Part shown: one piece after another, positions 27,793 through 41,865 of the stretch
Numbering within the stretch: the first letter of the stretch is position 1
Layout: each line of letters starts with the position of its first letter
DNA from: an uncultured bacterium
Lineage (GTDB): Bacteria > Edwardsbacteria > AC1 > EtOH8
Assembly (NCBI GenBank): GCA_937863685.1
Contig: CALMGM010000006.1
Span: 1 to 55,439, forward strand
Direction: 5' to 3'
Length of the DNA stretch: 55,439 bases
Program-made: the position numbers and the translations under genes
The notes under the pieces: model-generated
The model's database searches: none
The model's input: the letters and a program-made list of their open reading frames with translations, nothing else
What the model was told of the DNA's origin: nothing

Positions 27793-29709
27793 CTATAGGC
27801 CCGTCACGCTGACCCCGCCGGGATACTCCAGAATATACTCCAGCTCCATCTCCTTTTTCTCCTGCGGGCCCAGCTCCATCTTCCACTCTATCAGTCCGTT
27901 GGCCTTTTCCTTGATCCCGTATTCCAGCTTCTCGTCGTCGAACTTGGGAGATACTAATTTAATCTTTATCTTGTCGTTCCGGGTGACCGGATATTGTTCG
28001 TTGACGGTCAGGATCTCCTTGGTCTTCTTCAAGTTCTTGACCGTGATCTTGTAGCCGTAGGTCCGCTTGATCCGCTTGCCGTTCTCCACCAGGTCCTTCA
28101 TCTTCTGGCGGGTGATCTTGATGCCCTCATCTATGCCCAGCGAGACGTCGAATTTTTCGGACGGAATGACGGTGTTGATGGCCGAGGTGCCCACGAAATT
28201 GTTCCCGAAGAAGACGTTGATGTCCCCGGCAATGAAGGGGTACTCGGTGGAATTCTTGACCTTGCCCTGCAGATAGGCGTACTGCTTCAGGCGGGGGGCC
28301 GAGGAATATTCGAAGTCGGCCTTCAGGGTCTCGAAAGCGATGGGTATCTTGTGCGGCTCGCCGTCCGAGGGGATGTTGTTCTCTCCGGGGGTGTTGAAAA
28401 CATAAGATGTTGGTAAGTTCTCAACTTCTGAAATACATGGGATGGCTTGTATTTCTCTTGATGCCAATATTAGAATACCTTCTACTTCTAACGCTGTTGG
28501 CAATAAAGTAAACTTGATGTCGGCTGTCCGCCCTTCTTTTAATGAAACACCACTAACTGTAACAGCCTCATAACCCATCATCCTTGCTTTAATTGCATAA
28601 GTACCTGCAGGAATGTTATTTATTATAAATTTACCATTAATATCTGTATTTGCCCCCAGCTCTGTGTTTAATATTCCCACAACGGCTCCGGGCAGTGGTT
28701 CGTTAGTTCCTGCATCTAGAAGCATACCTGTTACTTTATTGTTCTTACCTGAACGGGATGTATTAATCTTAACTACTGCTCTTTGCCCGTCAGAATCTCT
28801 AGTAGATTTATATCTTGGCCTAGTTTGTTTTGAATCCAAATACCAAGTTGAAAGCAGCGGCATATTACCGGAAATATCCGGACGGGCAGTAGATAAAATC
28901 ATTTTTACGCCATTCCAATCCTCACCTGTTTGTTGGCGGATCATGGCATAATAGCCAACTTCTACAGATTTATCTTCGGGAGATACCCGAATATCATACT
29001 GTGGTTGCCAAGACGCTCCTTTTATAATATAACTTAACTTCAGATCCAGGTTGCCACCTTTTAACACTTGAAGGTTAACTGTTACGTTCTTTTGAATTGC
29101 ATTTTCAATGCTGGATATTTTCTGAAGCCTGTTTTGCAGTGCAATAAGTTTTGTCGTTAATTGTTTTTTGTATTTTCCAATTGTCCTGACATCATTATTT
29201 ATTATTTGATAGTGACTATCATAAAAAGCAAACAATCCTGTCCATTCGTTTGCAGGTTTAATTTTTGTTTTTTCATCTCCTGTCGCGCTTGTTTCAGTAC
29301 TTATGTTTTTAATACAGTCAAGGTAATCCGCTTTCTTTTTAAGCAGACCATGACGATCATCATATGCTTTTATTTGCTCTTGGTATAACTCTACAGAATC
29401 ATATAATATTCTGTATTTCTGATTTGTGGTATCTTGATATATTGTTTCTATTTTTATGGTTTGTATTTTTACTTCTGCAGATCCGTCGCCTGAAACCCTA
29501 ACTGTGTTATCATTAATTTCTACCGGCAAGGCCAATAGCTTTATTTGATACTCACCTGGTTGGTATGTTTTTATTAATGTGTGTGTAACTTCGCATTCCT
29601 GTTCATAAATCACTACCCGGCTTATTGGTGCAATGCTTTCAATTAATTGAACTGCATAAGCATTTAAACCTATCACTAAAATTATGATTATATATATACT
29701 TTTTTTCAT
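27793..29709 (-). CDS. DUF4139 protein A, with inserted carboxypeptidase-regulatory-like domain
   Basis: The 638-residue exported protein has a signal peptide (MKKSIYIIIILVIGLNAYA), an N-terminal DUF4140-like region, a coiled coil (about 100-210), and a DUF4139 region. Residues about 325-410 are an extra domain, 'GAVVGILNTELGANTDINGK', like the CarboxypepD_reg domain that opens TonB-dependent receptors, followed by a receptor-like 'ALEVEGILILASRE'. The last ~175 residues are identical to protein B, with DNA identity over 521 bp. The N-terminal two thirds are AT-rich and diverged from B. I use the ATG at 29709 since it starts the signal peptide. The family is sometimes named MuiA (mucoidy inhibitor); its biochemical role is unknown. 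Confidence 0.85.
   Translation of the reverse strand: MKKSIYIIIILVIGLNAYAVQLIESIAPISRVVIYEQECEVTHTLIKTYQPGEYQIKLLALPVEINDNTVRVSGDGSAEVKIQTIKIETIYQDTTNQKYRILYDSVELYQEQIKAYDDRHGLLKKKADYLDCIKNISTETSATGDEKTKIKPANEWTGLFAFYDSHYQIINNDVRTIGKYKKQLTTKLIALQNRLQKISSIENAIQKNVTVNLQVLKGGNLDLKLSYIIKGASWQPQYDIRVSPEDKSVEVGYYAMIRQQTGEDWNGVKMILSTARPDISGNMPLLSTWYLDSKQTRPRYKSTRDSDGQRAVVKINTSRSGKNNKVTGMLLDAGTNEPLPGAVVGILNTELGANTDINGKFIINNIPAGTYAIKARMMGYEAVTVSGVSLKEGRTADIKFTLLPTALEVEGILILASREIQAIPCISEVENLPTSYVFNTPGENNIPSDGEPHKIPIAFETLKADFEYSSAPRLKQYAYLQGKVKNSTEYPFIAGDINVFFGNNFVGTSAINTVIPSEKFDVSLGIDEGIKITRQKMKDLVENGKRIKRTYGYKITVKNLKKTKEILTVNEQYPVTRNDKIKIKLVSPKFDDEKLEYGIKEKANGLIEWKMELGPQEKKEMELEYILEYPGGVSVTGL
27851..28371 (-). 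repeat. 521-bp direct repeat, copy A
   Basis: This block encodes the C-terminal part of DUF4139 protein A and is identical, base for base, to 29832-30352 in protein B (offset 1981). Identity stops sharply at both ends: mismatches at 27850 and 28372, then clear divergence. This indicates recent gene conversion or unequal recombination. Confidence 0.95.
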
Positions 29710-29773
29710 TTGAATAAACCAATCATAGTATATTTTAATGCTTTTCAATTGGTTATACTTATTGGTGAACATT

Positions 29774-31462
29774 TTATAGACCTTGAACATTAGTATCCGA
29801 AGGGTATTCTACAATGTATTCCAGCTCCATTTCCTTTTTCTCCTGCGGGCCCAGCTCCATCTTCCACTCTATCAGTCCGTTGGCCTTTTCCTTGATCCCG
29901 TATTCCAGCTTCTCGTCGTCGAACTTGGGAGATACTAATTTAATCTTTATCTTGTCGTTCCGGGTGACCGGATATTGTTCGTTGACGGTCAGGATCTCCT
30001 TGGTCTTCTTCAAGTTCTTGACCGTGATCTTGTAGCCGTAGGTCCGCTTGATCCGCTTGCCGTTCTCCACCAGGTCCTTCATCTTCTGGCGGGTGATCTT
30101 GATGCCCTCATCTATGCCCAGCGAGACGTCGAATTTTTCGGACGGAATGACGGTGTTGATGGCCGAGGTGCCCACGAAATTGTTCCCGAAGAAGACGTTG
30201 ATGTCCCCGGCAATGAAGGGGTACTCGGTGGAATTCTTGACCTTGCCCTGCAGATAGGCGTACTGCTTCAGGCGGGGGGCCGAGGAATATTCGAAGTCGG
30301 CCTTCAGGGTCTCGAAAGCGATGGGTATCTTGTGCGGCTCGCCGTCCGAGGGAATGTTGTTCTCGCCCGGGGTCTGGTAGACGTAGGAGGTGCCTGTGAA
30401 TTCAACACCCGAAACGTTGATAGTAGCCCCCATAGCACCTGTCAATTGATCAGTTGTGGATGACCCGTCCGTAAAATAGGCCATCTCCGCCGGAGCCGGG
30501 GCCTGCTGCTCCTTGCTATAGGCGATATTCTGCTTGGCCCTTTGCGAGGCCTGCCCTTTCTGGTAATACTGCTGATAGACGTCGACATACCAGGGCTTGA
30601 GGGCCGGCATGGAGCCGGAGATGGAAGGCTGGGCGGTGGACAGGGTAATTTTGACGTTCTTCCAGTCCTCGCCGGTGTTCTGGTAGATCACCCCGTAATA
30701 GGTGAACTCCACCTCCTTGTTCTCCGGCGACACCCGGATGTCGTATAGGGGATGCCAGGAGGCGCCCATCATCATGTAACTTAAGGCTAGGGCCAGGCTG
30801 CCCTCCTTTTTGACGGTGAAGCTGACGCTCACGTCCTTCTTGGTCAGTCTGGCTCCGGCCGATAGCTTGTGCAGACGGCTCTGCAGGGCATTCAGCCTGG
30901 CTTGCAGAGCCTTCTTGCTCTTCTCGATACTCCGTTGTTCCTTGTTCATCGCTTCAAATTTGGCATCGTAAAAATTGTACAGCCCGGTCCACTCGCTGAT
31001 GGTGGTGGACCTGGGCTTGTCCGATTCCCGGCCGGAGGGCACGGCGGTGCTGGCATTCTTGATCTTCTCCAGATAATCGGACTCCTTCTGCAGCAGGCTG
31101 TAGCGGTCGTCGTATATCTTCTGCTGGTCCTTGAGCTGTTCCACCGAATCCTCCAGGGCCTTGTATTTCTGGTTGGTGGTGGTGTCCAGGTAGACCGTCT
31201 CGATCTTCACCCCGTTGATCTTGACCTCGGCCGTGCCGCTCCCGGAGGCCCGCACCGAGTTCTCGTCCAGCGAGGACGGCAGGTCGGTCATCTTGAACTG
31301 GTACTCCCCCGGCTGGTAGCCGGTCTTGTGCATCCGGGTTATCTCCACCCGGTCGTTGTAGATCACCACCTGGGAGATGGGGGTCTTCTGCTCGATGGTC
31401 TGCAGGGCAAAGGCTCCGGCGGCTATCAGCATCAGGGTTGATGCTAGGATGATCTTTTTCAT
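29774..31462 (-). CDS. DUF4139 protein B
   Basis: The 562-residue exported protein has a signal peptide ending GAFA (residues 1-19), a DUF4140-like N-terminus with a short beta domain, a coiled coil (about 95-200) and a DUF4139 C-terminal beta region. Between them lies a Gln/Ala/Pro-rich linker at the place where protein A has its extra domain. AAGGAG stands 6 bases before the ATG. GC content is like the chromosome average, so this looks like the resident copy. It lies 64 bases upstream of protein A, probably in one unit. The function of the family is not established. Confidence 0.9.
   Translation of the reverse strand: MKKIILASTLMLIAAGAFALQTIEQKTPISQVVIYNDRVEITRMHKTGYQPGEYQFKMTDLPSSLDENSVRASGSGTAEVKINGVKIETVYLDTTTNQKYKALEDSVEQLKDQQKIYDDRYSLLQKESDYLEKIKNASTAVPSGRESDKPRSTTISEWTGLYNFYDAKFEAMNKEQRSIEKSKKALQARLNALQSRLHKLSAGARLTKKDVSVSFTVKKEGSLALALSYMMMGASWHPLYDIRVSPENKEVEFTYYGVIYQNTGEDWKNVKITLSTAQPSISGSMPALKPWYVDVYQQYYQKGQASQRAKQNIAYSKEQQAPAPAEMAYFTDGSSTTDQLTGAMGATINVSGVEFTGTSYVYQTPGENNIPSDGEPHKIPIAFETLKADFEYSSAPRLKQYAYLQGKVKNSTEYPFIAGDINVFFGNNFVGTSAINTVIPSEKFDVSLGIDEGIKITRQKMKDLVENGKRIKRTYGYKITVKNLKKTKEILTVNEQYPVTRNDKIKIKLVSPKFDDEKLEYGIKEKANGLIEWKMELGPQEKKEMELEYIVEYPSDTNVQGL
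29832..30352 (-). repeat. 521-bp direct repeat, copy B
   Basis: Identical to 27851-28371. Codon choice in this block is GC-rich, as in the rest of gene B and unlike the rest of gene A, so B was probably the donor. Confidence 0.95.
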
Positions 31463-33961: not shown

Positions 33962-34294
33962 CTATTTTTTCAATTTTACGAACACCCGCCCGGCATAGAC
34001 CCCCAGAAAGGCCGGTATCAGAGCCAGCAGGGAGAAGAACAGATTCTGCTTGAAGGCCGGCATCCGGTCAAACATCAGCACCAGCAGCTGCAGCAGGAAC
34101 GGCCCGAAGCCCAGCGCAAAAGCCAGGCTTCTGGGATGCCGGTCGAAGAAGCGGCCCAAAGCCGCCCCTGCGGCCAGCACCAGCAGGGAGGTCAACACCC
34201 AGTTGACATGCAGGAGGTCCAGCCCCCCGGCCAGCATCCCTACGGCGGTGGCCATCAGGTAGTCTTTGTTTGCCTGAAAATAATTTTTCGGCAT
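33962..34294 (-). CDS. Small membrane protein of unknown function
   Basis: The 110-residue protein has three to four predicted membrane helices: 'TAVGMLAGGLDLLHVNWVL', 'SLLVLAAGAALGRFF', 'LAFALGFGPFLLQLLVLMF' and 'LFFSLLALIPAFLGVYAG'. A basic C-terminus (KLKK) suggests an inside location. It lies 54 bases downstream of the redox fusion gene on the same strand and could serve it, but no family is recognised. Confidence 0.75.
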   Translation of the reverse strand: MPKNYFQANKDYLMATAVGMLAGGLDLLHVNWVLTSLLVLAAGAALGRFFDRHPRSLAFALGFGPFLLQLLVLMFDRMPAFKQNLFFSLLALIPAFLGVYAGRVFVKLKK

Positions 34295-34348: not shown

Positions 34349-36721
34349 CTATGTAATCAGTATCACCACCAACGCCAGGCTCATCACCATGAACAATATG
34401 GCGGTGGCCAGCTTCACCCCGGACACCGAAGCTTGAGCCCATCCGGCGATGGTCTTGGAGGATACTCCCCAGAAGGCGATGACGAAGGTGATGATCATCG
34501 GCACTTCGAACATCAGGTTGTACAACAGCAGGTACCCGTAGGCCTGATACCTGACCGAGGATATCTGGCTGACAAAGGCGATGGTGGGCAGATAGACCTG
34601 GCCGGTGCAGGCGAACTCCAGGACCGAGGTGATCAGCCCCACCACAAAGGCCCCGCCGATAAGCCCCCCGGCCCCCATCCGTTCGCGGATAACCTTATGG
34701 ATGCGCTGTTTGGTCTTGGATGACAATTGCAGGTCCATGCCGGAGAGATCCCCCCGATGTGCTTTCAGGTAATCCCTGAAATTATATACCGCCAGAATAA
34801 GACCGGCAATGACCGCCAGCCAATACAGGATGCGGCTCAGCGCCGGCAGTGCCTTCAGGGACAGCAGGAATGACAGGCCTCCGACGCCGATCAGAAAATA
34901 GACCAGAAAATCGGCCAGGGTATAGGACAGACCCACCGCCAGGATCTCCCACCTTTTGCGGCCCACGAAGGCCAGGTAGGAGATGAAGAACACCAGCACC
35001 GCCAGAGAACAGGGATTTATCCCGTCCAGCAGGCCGGCTCCCATTACCCCCAGTACGCCGAAGGACTTGAAACGCTGGAAAATGCTCTGGCCGGCCTGGG
35101 TGATGTACCTTTTGGCCTCCTCCCAGGGGACCCGTTTGGTGCCCCTGGAATATTTGGAGACCAGGGCGGCCAGGGCGGCATCGTCTATCTGGCTGGCTGC
35201 CAGATGGTCATCGCCGATGTAGGCGCTGGGGGCTATCATCCTTTGTTCCCCGGGGACGTTGTAGAGTATCCCCAGGGCCTCTATGATCACCCGGTCGCCC
35301 TTGGCCTGCAGGTCGAATTTTCTTACTGCCAGCCGGGGATGCTGTTCCTGCAAGGCCCTCAGCATATACTCGGCCCGGCCGCATTTCTGGCAGCGCAGGT
35401 TGGTGACGAAGGCCAGGTAGATGCTGTCGGATGATGCCCCGGCCGCTAAATTATTTTCAGATGTATCTTTTGTATTCGATGTTTTGTTCTTGGTCTTTTT
35501 TATGCTATTTTGATTCAGCTGCAGGCTCAGCAGTGCCTCCAGCTCCTTTTCAATCTCCTCCACCCCGCCGAGGATCCTGTCGTTTATGACCACCGCAGGG
35601 ATCTCATTGCTTTTATCGTTAAACAGCCTCTCATAATCCAGCAGTAATTTATATTCCCTTGAATCATCAACCCTGTGATATTGGAGGCGCAGTCTGCCGG
35701 AATATTTGCCAGCGACATCCCGGAAAAGCCCTTTCTCCAGCTTTTGGCAATCGGGGCAGTCCGGTGCCACAAAGATGTGGATGACCGTTTTTTCTATCGT
35801 GATGCCGCCGCCGGTGTCTGGGTTGTGGTGGGAATAGTCCGGCATCGGACCGATTATTCTGCCGACTGCCGGATCATCGGGCAGGTCGGAAGTTATTCCG
35901 TAAAGCTTCGACTCCGATAGCAGCCACTTGCCGCCCTCCCTGGCCATAGCTGTCCCGGTCAGCCGTTTTCCGCCCGAGCCCGATTCTATTATCGGCACTC
36001 CGTTGCTGTAATATGGTTTTTCCAGCTCTGTCTGGCTGTGCCCGCCGATGACCAGCGACAGCTCCGGGAATTTTCTGGCCAGCTCGGCCTCTTCCTCAAA
36101 ACCCAGATGCGAGACCAGGATGAAAAGATCTACCTTGCCCTTTAAACTGTCGACCAGATTTCGGAGCACCGGTTCGGGAGGAATGATCTCTAGGCCCTCC
36201 AGCTTTTCCTTTGGGTAGTAAAGAAGGGTCTTGGGTGATATCAGCCCGATCACCGCGGCCTTTGCCGCCGGCTTGTCTAAAGAGCAGATCCGGTAAGCTT
36301 CAGCCATCGGTCTGCCATTGTAAAGCAGATTGGCGGAAACAAAGGGGATGTCAAACCGGCTTTTCAATTGCAGGAAATAATCGCCCCCTTTGGCCAGTTC
36401 CTGGTCGCCGACGGCCACCGCCTGGTACTTCATGGCCTGAAATGCCGCCAGGACCAGGGAATCCGAGGGCCGGTCGGTGTTTATCCCGAAGATGTCCCCG
36501 GACTCCAGCAGCCAGTACGGTCCGCCGCCGGCCAGCTTCTTTACCAGGGATGCCTGTTTGGCCAGGCCGCCCTTGGGCTCGCTGGGACAGCGACAGGGAA
36601 AAAGGTGTCCGTTGGCCGAGTTGGTCTGAAATATCTGTAATTCCTGGGCTGCGGCGTTGGAGGGAACGATCAGTCCGGACAAAAAGATTATCAGTATAGA
36701 TATTGAAAATATTTTTTTCAT
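34349..36721 (-). CDS. Fusion: UshA-like domain, two thioredoxin-like domains, CcdA/DsbD-like membrane domain
   Basis: The 790-residue protein starts with a signal peptide (to about residue 26). Residues 27-320 resemble UshA-like 5'-nucleotidases, with 'HLFPCRCPSEPKGGLA', 'SGDIFG' and 'IGGHSQT', but several metal-binding Asp/His positions seem changed. A thioredoxin-like domain with CPDC follows (about 330-425), then a second with CQKC (about 450-545). The C-terminal 220 residues form about six helices with the paired CcdA/DsbD cysteines in 'GINPCS' and 'EFACTGQVYLP'. This suggests electrons pass from the cytoplasm through the membrane domain to the two periplasmic disulfide domains. The ATG at 36721 is chosen for the signal peptide. 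Confidence 0.85.
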   Translation of the reverse strand: MKKIFSISILIIFLSGLIVPSNAAAQELQIFQTNSANGHLFPCRCPSEPKGGLAKQASLVKKLAGGGPYWLLESGDIFGINTDRPSDSLVLAAFQAMKYQAVAVGDQELAKGGDYFLQLKSRFDIPFVSANLLYNGRPMAEAYRICSLDKPAAKAAVIGLISPKTLLYYPKEKLEGLEIIPPEPVLRNLVDSLKGKVDLFILVSHLGFEEEAELARKFPELSLVIGGHSQTELEKPYYSNGVPIIESGSGGKRLTGTAMAREGGKWLLSESKLYGITSDLPDDPAVGRIIGPMPDYSHHNPDTGGGITIEKTVIHIFVAPDCPDCQKLEKGLFRDVAGKYSGRLRLQYHRVDDSREYKLLLDYERLFNDKSNEIPAVVINDRILGGVEEIEKELEALLSLQLNQNSIKKTKNKTSNTKDTSENNLAAGASSDSIYLAFVTNLRCQKCGRAEYMLRALQEQHPRLAVRKFDLQAKGDRVIIEALGILYNVPGEQRMIAPSAYIGDDHLAASQIDDAALAALVSKYSRGTKRVPWEEAKRYITQAGQSIFQRFKSFGVLGVMGAGLLDGINPCSLAVLVFFISYLAFVGRKRWEILAVGLSYTLADFLVYFLIGVGGLSFLLSLKALPALSRILYWLAVIAGLILAVYNFRDYLKAHRGDLSGMDLQLSSKTKQRIHKVIRERMGAGGLIGGAFVVGLITSVLEFACTGQVYLPTIAFVSQISSVRYQAYGYLLLYNLMFEVPMIITFVIAFWGVSSKTIAGWAQASVSGVKLATAILFMVMSLALVVILIT

Positions 36722-36734
36722 GGATACAAATGCA

Positions 36735-36763
36735 GCGCCGCACAACACAGGGCTATGCGGCGC
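36735..36763 (-). terminator. Possible terminator after gap
   Basis: GCGCCGCA and TGCGGCGC form an 8-bp GC-rich stem with a 13-base loop between the gap stop (36779) and the fusion gene start (36721). No good T-tract follows on the reverse strand, so termination would be weak or the hairpin may have another role. Confidence 0.4.
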
Positions 36764-36778: not shown

Positions 36779-37861
<1,083 letters not shown>

Positions 37862-40568: not shown

Positions 40569-41723
40569 TCATCTGTTTTTCATCAGGACCCCGATCCCGC
40601 CATTGGCCTCCAGCTCCCGGGCCCCTTCCACGAATTCCACCCTGACTCCGCGCCTCAGGGCCAGGCCCACCATCTCCTCTTTCATGTCCGGGTCCTTATT
40701 GATGTTCTTGCCGCTGCAATAGATGCATTCCCTTGGTTTGCCCAGAACCCCCAGCATCAGGCAGTCGGCGCACTGCCAGCCCTGCCCGGTATATTTTTCC
40801 GAGATCACTAGGGTCTCGGCCCGGCCGTCCTGCAGGGCCGTCAGGATGGCCCTGGTTCCCAGCATGGCCCGCCCCCCCTTGCTTTTGGCCAGCACTACGG
40901 CCTCCCGGGCTATCCTCTGGGACTCCTGGTTCTCCAAATCTTTGAACAGCTTCAGCGATTCGTCCAGCACCTTTTTGTTGGGCGATTTGATGTCGAATTT
41001 GGCGGTGGTGATCACCTTGTTCTTCAGCGCGGCCGGCAGCTGCCGGTTGATCTCGGCCAAAGTTCCGTTCTCCGCGGCCACCAGCAGATGGGCGGTGTCG
41101 CCCTGGAAGAATCTCTGGGCCTCCCGGATGACGCTTTTTACGTGTTTGGCCCGGAGGTCTTTCAGATGCCGCTGGTGTTTTTCATCGGACAGGCCCAGCC
41201 GGCCCTTTCTGGTCTCGTAGCCCTTGGCCGAGATGTCATCGGCCGCGGTTACAATATCGGCCTCCTCCTCCAGGTTGCCCAGGTACATCTTCAGCATTTT
41301 GGCCTGCTTCTCGTCGCTGATGATCACGCCGTAAGGGTAGTAATTATCGGCCATCCTGGCCAGGGGATAGATGAAGGGTACCCGGGACACTATCACCCGG
41401 TTGGCCAGGGGAAGCACCGTCTGGAAGGTCTTGAATATTTTCTTGCTCTGGGAAATGAACACGGCGGCCCCCTTGCTCTCCGGCCTCAGGTCCTCCTCCA
41501 GATAACGGTTGATCTCCTTGATGTCCTTGGGAAAGCTTTCCGCTTCCGGGCTGTGCGGTTTCAAGCTCTTTTCTATTTCGCTGAATTTTTTCTTGAGAAA
41601 CACATTGTAATTCCTGCGTCCTTTGCCGTCCGGGGCGGCGTTAATGTAGACGCTCAGCACATAGCCCTGGCCGGGCTGCATCCTGGTCAGTTCCCGAAGT
41701 GATTTTTTGATATCGGTGCTCAT
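40569..41723 (-). CDS. Bacterial eRF1-like (baeRF) protein
   Basis: The 384-residue protein resembles bacterial archaeo-eukaryotic release-factor homologues. Region 120-260 fits eRF1 domain 2 (RNase H-like fold), and the end (about 270-384) fits the L7Ae-like domain 3 with an inserted zinc ribbon, 'CADCLMLGVLGKPRECIYC', as in aRF1/eRF1. The usual GGQ loop is not evident ('SAKGYETRKGRLG' is at that place), so true release activity is unlikely. Roles in ribosome rescue or stress are proposed for the family. I use the ATG at 41723 with AGGAG 10 bases ahead. A GTG at 41732 is too close to it. Confidence 0.75.
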   Translation of the reverse strand: MSTDIKKSLRELTRMQPGQGYVLSVYINAAPDGKGRRNYNVFLKKKFSEIEKSLKPHSPEAESFPKDIKEINRYLEEDLRPESKGAAVFISQSKKIFKTFQTVLPLANRVIVSRVPFIYPLARMADNYYPYGVIISDEKQAKMLKMYLGNLEEEADIVTAADDISAKGYETRKGRLGLSDEKHQRHLKDLRAKHVKSVIREAQRFFQGDTAHLLVAAENGTLAEINRQLPAALKNKVITTAKFDIKSPNKKVLDESLKLFKDLENQESQRIAREAVVLAKSKGGRAMLGTRAILTALQDGRAETLVISEKYTGQGWQCADCLMLGVLGKPRECIYCSGKNINKDPDMKEEMVGLALRRGVRVEFVEGARELEANGGIGVLMKNR

Positions 41724-41865
41724 GATGTTCACGCTCCTTTTTAGTTTACTGGTTGATTCAGATAGTCTAAAAGGACGTTAATTGTCGCCCAATATCAATC
41801 CTCCTTATATGATTTTTATTTGTTAGACTAAGTTAATAGATTCCCATTGACCATTCGGACGCTTT

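Follow-up and report, generated by a model that had tools for sequence, protein, structure and literature searches.

A UshA-like domain with a redox-type cysteine pair fused to two thioredoxin-like domains and a CcdA-like membrane domain in Edwardsbacteria: a proposed extracytoplasmic reductant relay

The gene described here lies on the minus strand of a 55,439-nucleotide stretch of contig CALMGM010000006.1 (assembly GCA_937863685.1) from an uncultured bacterium of the Edwardsbacteria, and this whole stretch is referred to below as the window. The ATG at position 36721 is a better start than the GTG, placing the gene at 34349-36721 and giving a 790-residue protein that begins MKKIFSISILIIFLSGLIVPSNAAAQE. 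The signal peptide was judged by eye from the sequence, and a helix at residues 2-17 is also present in the structure model. A sequence-only reading had described a four-part fusion of UshA-like, two thioredoxin-like and CcdA/DsbD-like domains; all four parts and every quoted motif were found in the protein, including TNSANG at residues 33-38. Outside the motifs listed in the table, the protein contains a single cysteine, Cys 146.

Table 1. Features of the fusion gene and its product, in window positions
Feature	Positions	Strand	Basis or remark
Full open reading frame	34349-36748	minus	799 aa, counted from GTG
Signal peptide, residues 1-25	36647..36721	minus	MKKIFSISILIIFLSGLIVPSNAAA: hydrophobic stretch and AxA-type end
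UshA-like metallophosphoesterase-type domain, residues 27-292	35846..36643	minus	NF041198, SoxB and UshA matches; PDB 5'-nucleotidases
PCRC, residues 42-45, redox-type Cys pair	36587..36598	minus	alignment and in-frame TGA in relatives
Thioredoxin-like domain 1, residues 311-404; CPDC 322-325	35510..35791	minus	sub-threshold Pfam match and model
Thioredoxin-like domain 2, residues 433-525; CQKC 444-447	35147..35425	minus	predicted fold, conserved Cys
CcdA-like membrane domain, residues 545-790	34352..35089	minus	profile-profile match, model, charge pattern
NPC, residues 569-571, transmembrane helix 1	35009..35017	minus	invariant in 30/30 family members
CTG, residues 705-707, transmembrane helix 4	34601..34609	minus	invariant in 30/30 family members

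The fusion was encountered at full length and without a stop in nine of the ten genomes of the family, the query genome included, which argues that it is not a chance frame. The orthologs share 58-82% identity, and the motif cysteines are kept in every full-length copy. The four domains were never split into separate genes in these close relatives, a possibility that the sequence-only reading had raised, and separate neighbouring genes were seen in distant lineages only. In the tenth genome (G005, 89% complete) the fusion was not found, just a paralog with an intact nucleotidase set. The sole other match to the fusion in the query genome was likewise a paralog, carrying TNDIHGHL. A literature search found no paper describing the fusion, or DUF1573 together with CcdA.

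The genes surrounding the fusion were also inspected. A GAPDH gene (gap; 36779-37843, minus) lies 57 nt upstream, and gap is upstream at L003-L007 too, the loci with this arrangement covering two genera; in a third genus (L009, L010) a Ser/Thr kinase gene takes its place, so an operon reading with gap was given no functional weight. Directly downstream (33962-34294, minus) is a gene for a 110-residue, small membrane-protein-like product with no Pfam match. Further along the minus strand are two overlapping tandem DUF4140/DUF4139 genes (27793-29790 and 29774-31462); the former, the later of the two in transcription order, has its DUF4139 interrupted by a carboxypeptidase-regulatory-like domain. 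A bacterial baeRF_family10 (archaeo-eukaryotic release-factor-like) protein is encoded at 40569-41732, minus.

We compared the N-terminal domain, or head, with curated families and known structures. The best of three profile matches for residues 27-292 was NF041198, the UshA-like (seleno)protein model (6.6e-38; 130.5 bits, cut-off 275), and it was limited to the first half of that model (12-260 of 519). The SoxB model TIGR04486 (E 8e-13; 47.5 bits, cut-off 550) and the UshA model (6e-12, below cut-off) were matched as well. Searches of the PDB returned the 5'-nucleotidase 2z1a with phmmer (4e-9) and 3ive with Foldseek (E 7e-18, from an early AlphaFold2 model and covering about half of each target). 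From the matches and the predicted structure, the domain is assigned the metallophosphoesterase fold of 5'-nucleotidases. Although this fold is shared with UshA and ecto-5'-nucleotidase, the head has lost the first metal site, the catalytic histidine and the C-terminal substrate domain and has gained a cysteine pair. With SoxB thiosulfohydrolase it shares the superfamily domain but not the ligand set, and no sox gene was seen beside the fusion.

The loss of hydrolase residues was examined position by position, using UshA active-site numbering. Four of the eight active-site residues (D41, H43, N116 and H117) are replaced by S, N, D and Q, and the other four (D84, H217, H252 and Q254) are kept. 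The C-terminal 5'-nucleotidase domain is absent, the thioredoxin-like domains following residue 292. Because half of the active site is replaced and the substrate domain is gone, the head is judged from its sequence not to be a working 5'-nucleotidase, in agreement with what had been read from the replaced catalytic positions. In line with that reading, the metal-binding residues are not intact as a full set, yet all 12 sequences of the subclade retain D76, D106, H205, H228 and Q230; four of these (D76, H205, H228 and Q230) correspond to UshA ligands, and the fifth, D106, is the Asn-to-Asp replacement. This retained half-site may bind a metal or an anion.

The first cysteine of PCRC falls eight residues past the D41 position, on the loop that joins strand 1 to helix 1, and where the second stands about 20 relatives have an in-frame TGA, the selenocysteine site in the PCGU motif of listed selenoproteins. 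The head is not a private oddity: on this alignment it is the Cys form of a known UshA-like selenoprotein family in which PCxC alternates with PC-x-selenocysteine. These UshA-like selenoproteins, the CxU family of PMC2398784 and PMC13188914, have been listed since 2008 with no function given (PMC2398784). The window protein shares with the NF041198 family the UshA-type N-terminal domain, a PCxC or PCxU motif after the first strand and the lack of a C-terminal nucleotidase domain; it differs in scoring below the family cut-off, in its Cys form and in its fusion to the other domains, whereas the high-scoring NF041198 members examined carry a four-haem C-terminal segment in that place. In the query genome the sole above-cut-off match in a tRNA-Sec search was a tRNA-Gly, and the SelB search returned GTPase matches only, all sub-threshold. 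The genome therefore most likely lacks selenocysteine, so that the Cys form would be genuine.

Among 65 distinct relatives of the head, the Cys/Sec pair and the full hydrolase site were mutually exclusive. At least seven of the eight hydrolase residues were kept by none of the 49 relatives with the pair (the best kept four), as against 8 of the 16 without it (p = 2.5e-6, relatedness not corrected for). The residue losses and the Cys/Sec pair together support the proposal in the sequence-only reading that the UshA-like part is probably a redox or binding module rather than a nucleotidase.

Structure prediction, first run with 11 sequences (pTM 0.40), was replaced by a 54-sequence model (pLDDT 87.5, pTM 0.57) that contains two thioredoxin-like domains and a six-helix membrane domain, as the domain reading had anticipated. 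Both thioredoxin-like domains were predicted with high confidence, with block pLDDT of about 90-96 in domain 1. Their best Pfam match was Thioredoxin_2 (19.4 of 27 bits), and Thioredoxin_4 was also sub-threshold. Cys 322 and 325, and likewise Cys 444 and 447, were present in 40 of the 41 aligned rows having a residue there; over all six relay cysteines the count was 40-41 of 41. The prolines preceding the third strand (P375 and P498) are nearly invariant, and both domains combine a predicted thioredoxin-like fold with a CxxC motif and the conserved proline. The model's less certain stretches include the PCRC loop (blocks about 63), a point that weighs against the relay proposed below.

The membrane domain of the window protein had no match in Pfam, and DsbD_TM was reached by just one of 30 relatives (2.8e-5). 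Profile-profile alignment (hhalign) against 13 canonical CcdA/DsbD domains gave a probability of 94.8 and E 5e-8, and NPC and CTG aligned in register with the two PC motifs. The NCBIfam model ArsG (NF040495) was weakly matched at full length by 27 of 30 members (best 2.3e-8), the window protein itself scoring 19 bits against a cut-off of 200, and a PDB sequence search with the membrane-domain profile returned no match. Six transmembrane helices are predicted at residues 545-790; the first is interrupted at NPC and the fourth at CTG. Lys/Arg residues number 3 in the loop following helix 1, 9 in that following helix 3 and 0 or 1 in each of the others, a charge pattern that fits an N-out topology with all three exported domains outside. 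We treat this domain as a distant CcdA-type family, not described by Pfam. The query genome also encodes one classic CcdA, and a frame of 113 residues there strongly matches thioredoxin; the latter is a candidate for the cytoplasmic thioredoxin partner that the sequence-only reading had proposed to look for.

We searched 84,980 species genomes for the Trx-Trx-CcdA core and examined the best 80 of 250 loci. Among these, the core spans about 510-560 residues, sometimes with three thioredoxin domains, and was encountered in Chloroflexi, Zixibacteria, Omnitrophota, WOR-3, Poribacteria, Pseudomonadota and others. On this sequence evidence the core is a widespread family missing from Pfam, reported here as new. 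Besides the window protein, the UshA-like head is fused to the core in other Edwardsbacteria and in L073 and G047. Two Poribacteria loci (L117, L130) have degenerate fused heads with one cysteine of the pair and one thioredoxin domain, and in the tree the fused cores are not grouped with the adjacent ones in a single clade; both observations weigh against the relay. So does the absence, in most of the best 80 loci, of either a UshA-like or a DUF1573 partner from the stretch seen.

Separate TGA-bearing UshA-like genes adjoin the core gene at L074 (two), L081, L090, L096, L116 and L148 (two), and their occurrence as neighbours in distant lineages strengthens the functional link of head and core. 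The Sec motifs at these six loci are PCGU, PCPTU or SGU, with a 6-nt gap at one locus and copies on both sides of the core at another. At L074 (3201-5906) two tandem UshA-like selenoprotein genes (PSGUG, PCPTUG) lie upstream of the core gene, and at L096 (4340-5727) the Trx-Trx-CcdA gene has downstream of it a Sec-type UshA-like gene and, about 8 nt further on, a thioredoxin gene. SelB scored above cut-off in five of the six genomes and was not found in that of L096. Flanking sequence totalling about 566 kb contained the eight TGA-type genes, where a density of four per 3 Mb would predict about 0.8 (p ~1e-6); for this figure the density was assumed, the loci are not independent and the ranking may favour whole-query matches. 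The excess would shrink if spread across all 250 loci.

A second partner of the core was DUF1573, and its association cannot stem from the ranking because it was absent from the query. An N-terminal DUF1573 is fused to the core at five loci (just under the Pfam cut-off at L014), and at 12 others a separate DUF1573 gene is the same-strand neighbour of the core, no more than about 320 nt away (L083, L087, L105, L107, L109, L122, L124, L129, L138, L139, L142, L145). All 17 DUF1573 partners contain C-x-C, as SCSC, SCGC, TCGC, TCAC, SCAC or NCPC, and the core partners of either kind almost always carry C-x-C or C-x-U, so that two unrelated folds with the same spacing share one membrane core. DUF1573 has been reported as a selenoprotein family in its own right, with motif UGC, and the review tables leave its function unexplained. 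Four CxxCH haem motifs were also seen in the C-terminal segment of many UshA-like Cys/Sec proteins. One such tetrahaem protein (L015) branches just outside the clade of L073 and Edwardsbacteria heads (97/71 support) and has the same residues as these heads at all compared positions; the same head beside two different electron carriers is as expected of an oxidoreductase.

We propose, as the probable reading, that this single chain works as a DsbD-like transmembrane reductant relay, which ends on the CxC head and reduces an extracytoplasmic substrate. In DsbD, electrons from NADPH reach the periplasmic domains by way of thioredoxin and the membrane core (PMC4460558). By analogy, a cytoplasmic thioredoxin would reduce the C571/C705 pair of the membrane domain, and electrons would then pass to CPDC and CQKC in the exported domains and finally to C43/C45 of the head, in the loop over its vestigial active site. 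The head would act as a terminal thiol reductase (selenol in relatives) on a small molecule or a protein in the extracytoplasmic space. The architecture, the conserved cysteines, the lost hydrolase residues, the Sec/Cys exchange and the fused or adjacent partners come from sequence comparison; the direction of flow, the order of the thioredoxin steps, the nature of the substrate and any retained metal are inferred. The relay had been suggested before as a self-contained one; the relay itself is supported, but "self-contained" is too strong, as a CcdA-type core needs a cytoplasmic donor. In DsbD, ScsB and CcdA systems, too, a membrane core with two conserved cysteines supplies thioredoxin-like domains outside the membrane and a dithiol domain at the end of the chain, although here the exported domains are all N-terminal to the core, the thioredoxin domains number two, the head is UshA-like or DUF1573, and Pfam DsbD_TM gives no recognition.

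An unlikely but sizeable alternative is that the head serves to bind or scavenge a ligand, for instance one metal ion, a metalloid, a nucleotide or a sulfur oxyanion, that the Cys pair helps to bind and the relay just keeps the head thiols reduced, with no reductive chemistry on the substrate. The five residues kept throughout the 12-member subclade would suit such a role, as would the organoarsenical permease ArsG being the nearest, if weakly matched, curated family of the membrane domain and an ArsP_1 permease gene lying near L076. Against this, the ligands are eroded in most Cys/Sec relatives while the pair persists, and the repeated use of selenocysteine together with the tetrahaem fusions points to electron transfer. 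We think it highly improbable that the head has kept phosphoesterase or thiosulfohydrolase activity at an altered site with a single metal, the relay only protecting its cysteines: the fold persists, as does half of the ligand set, but D41 and H43 of the first site and the catalytic H117 have been lost, along with the entire C-terminal domain.

The flow could also run in reverse, a SoxB-like head oxidising a thiol or sulfur substrate and passing electrons inward through the relay. The head scores slightly better with SoxB than with UshA, and the cytochrome-fused relatives could run in either direction; since characterised CcdA/DsbD proteins move electrons outward from cytoplasmic thioredoxin (PMC4460558), we regard inward flow as very unlikely and favour the outward, reducing relay.

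Beyond the single-chain relay, the core may be a general family whose CxC or CxU partner, UshA-like or DUF1573 according to lineage, is fused or encoded next door. More tentatively, and at somewhat short of an even chance, it would serve as a general electron supply for extracytoplasmic CxC/CxU reductases, the UshA-like head being a phosphoesterase-fold oxidoreductase powered by either the relay or c-type haems. The head also represents a hydrolase fold that appears to have lost its metal chemistry on gaining a redox pair. The Cys-only fused version, with its own electron supply, could be made in Escherichia coli without selenium, and the redox chain of the single-chain fusion can be traced cysteine by cysteine. 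If the general-supply proposal is true, it would provide a first function for two orphan selenoprotein families, UshA-like and DUF1573.
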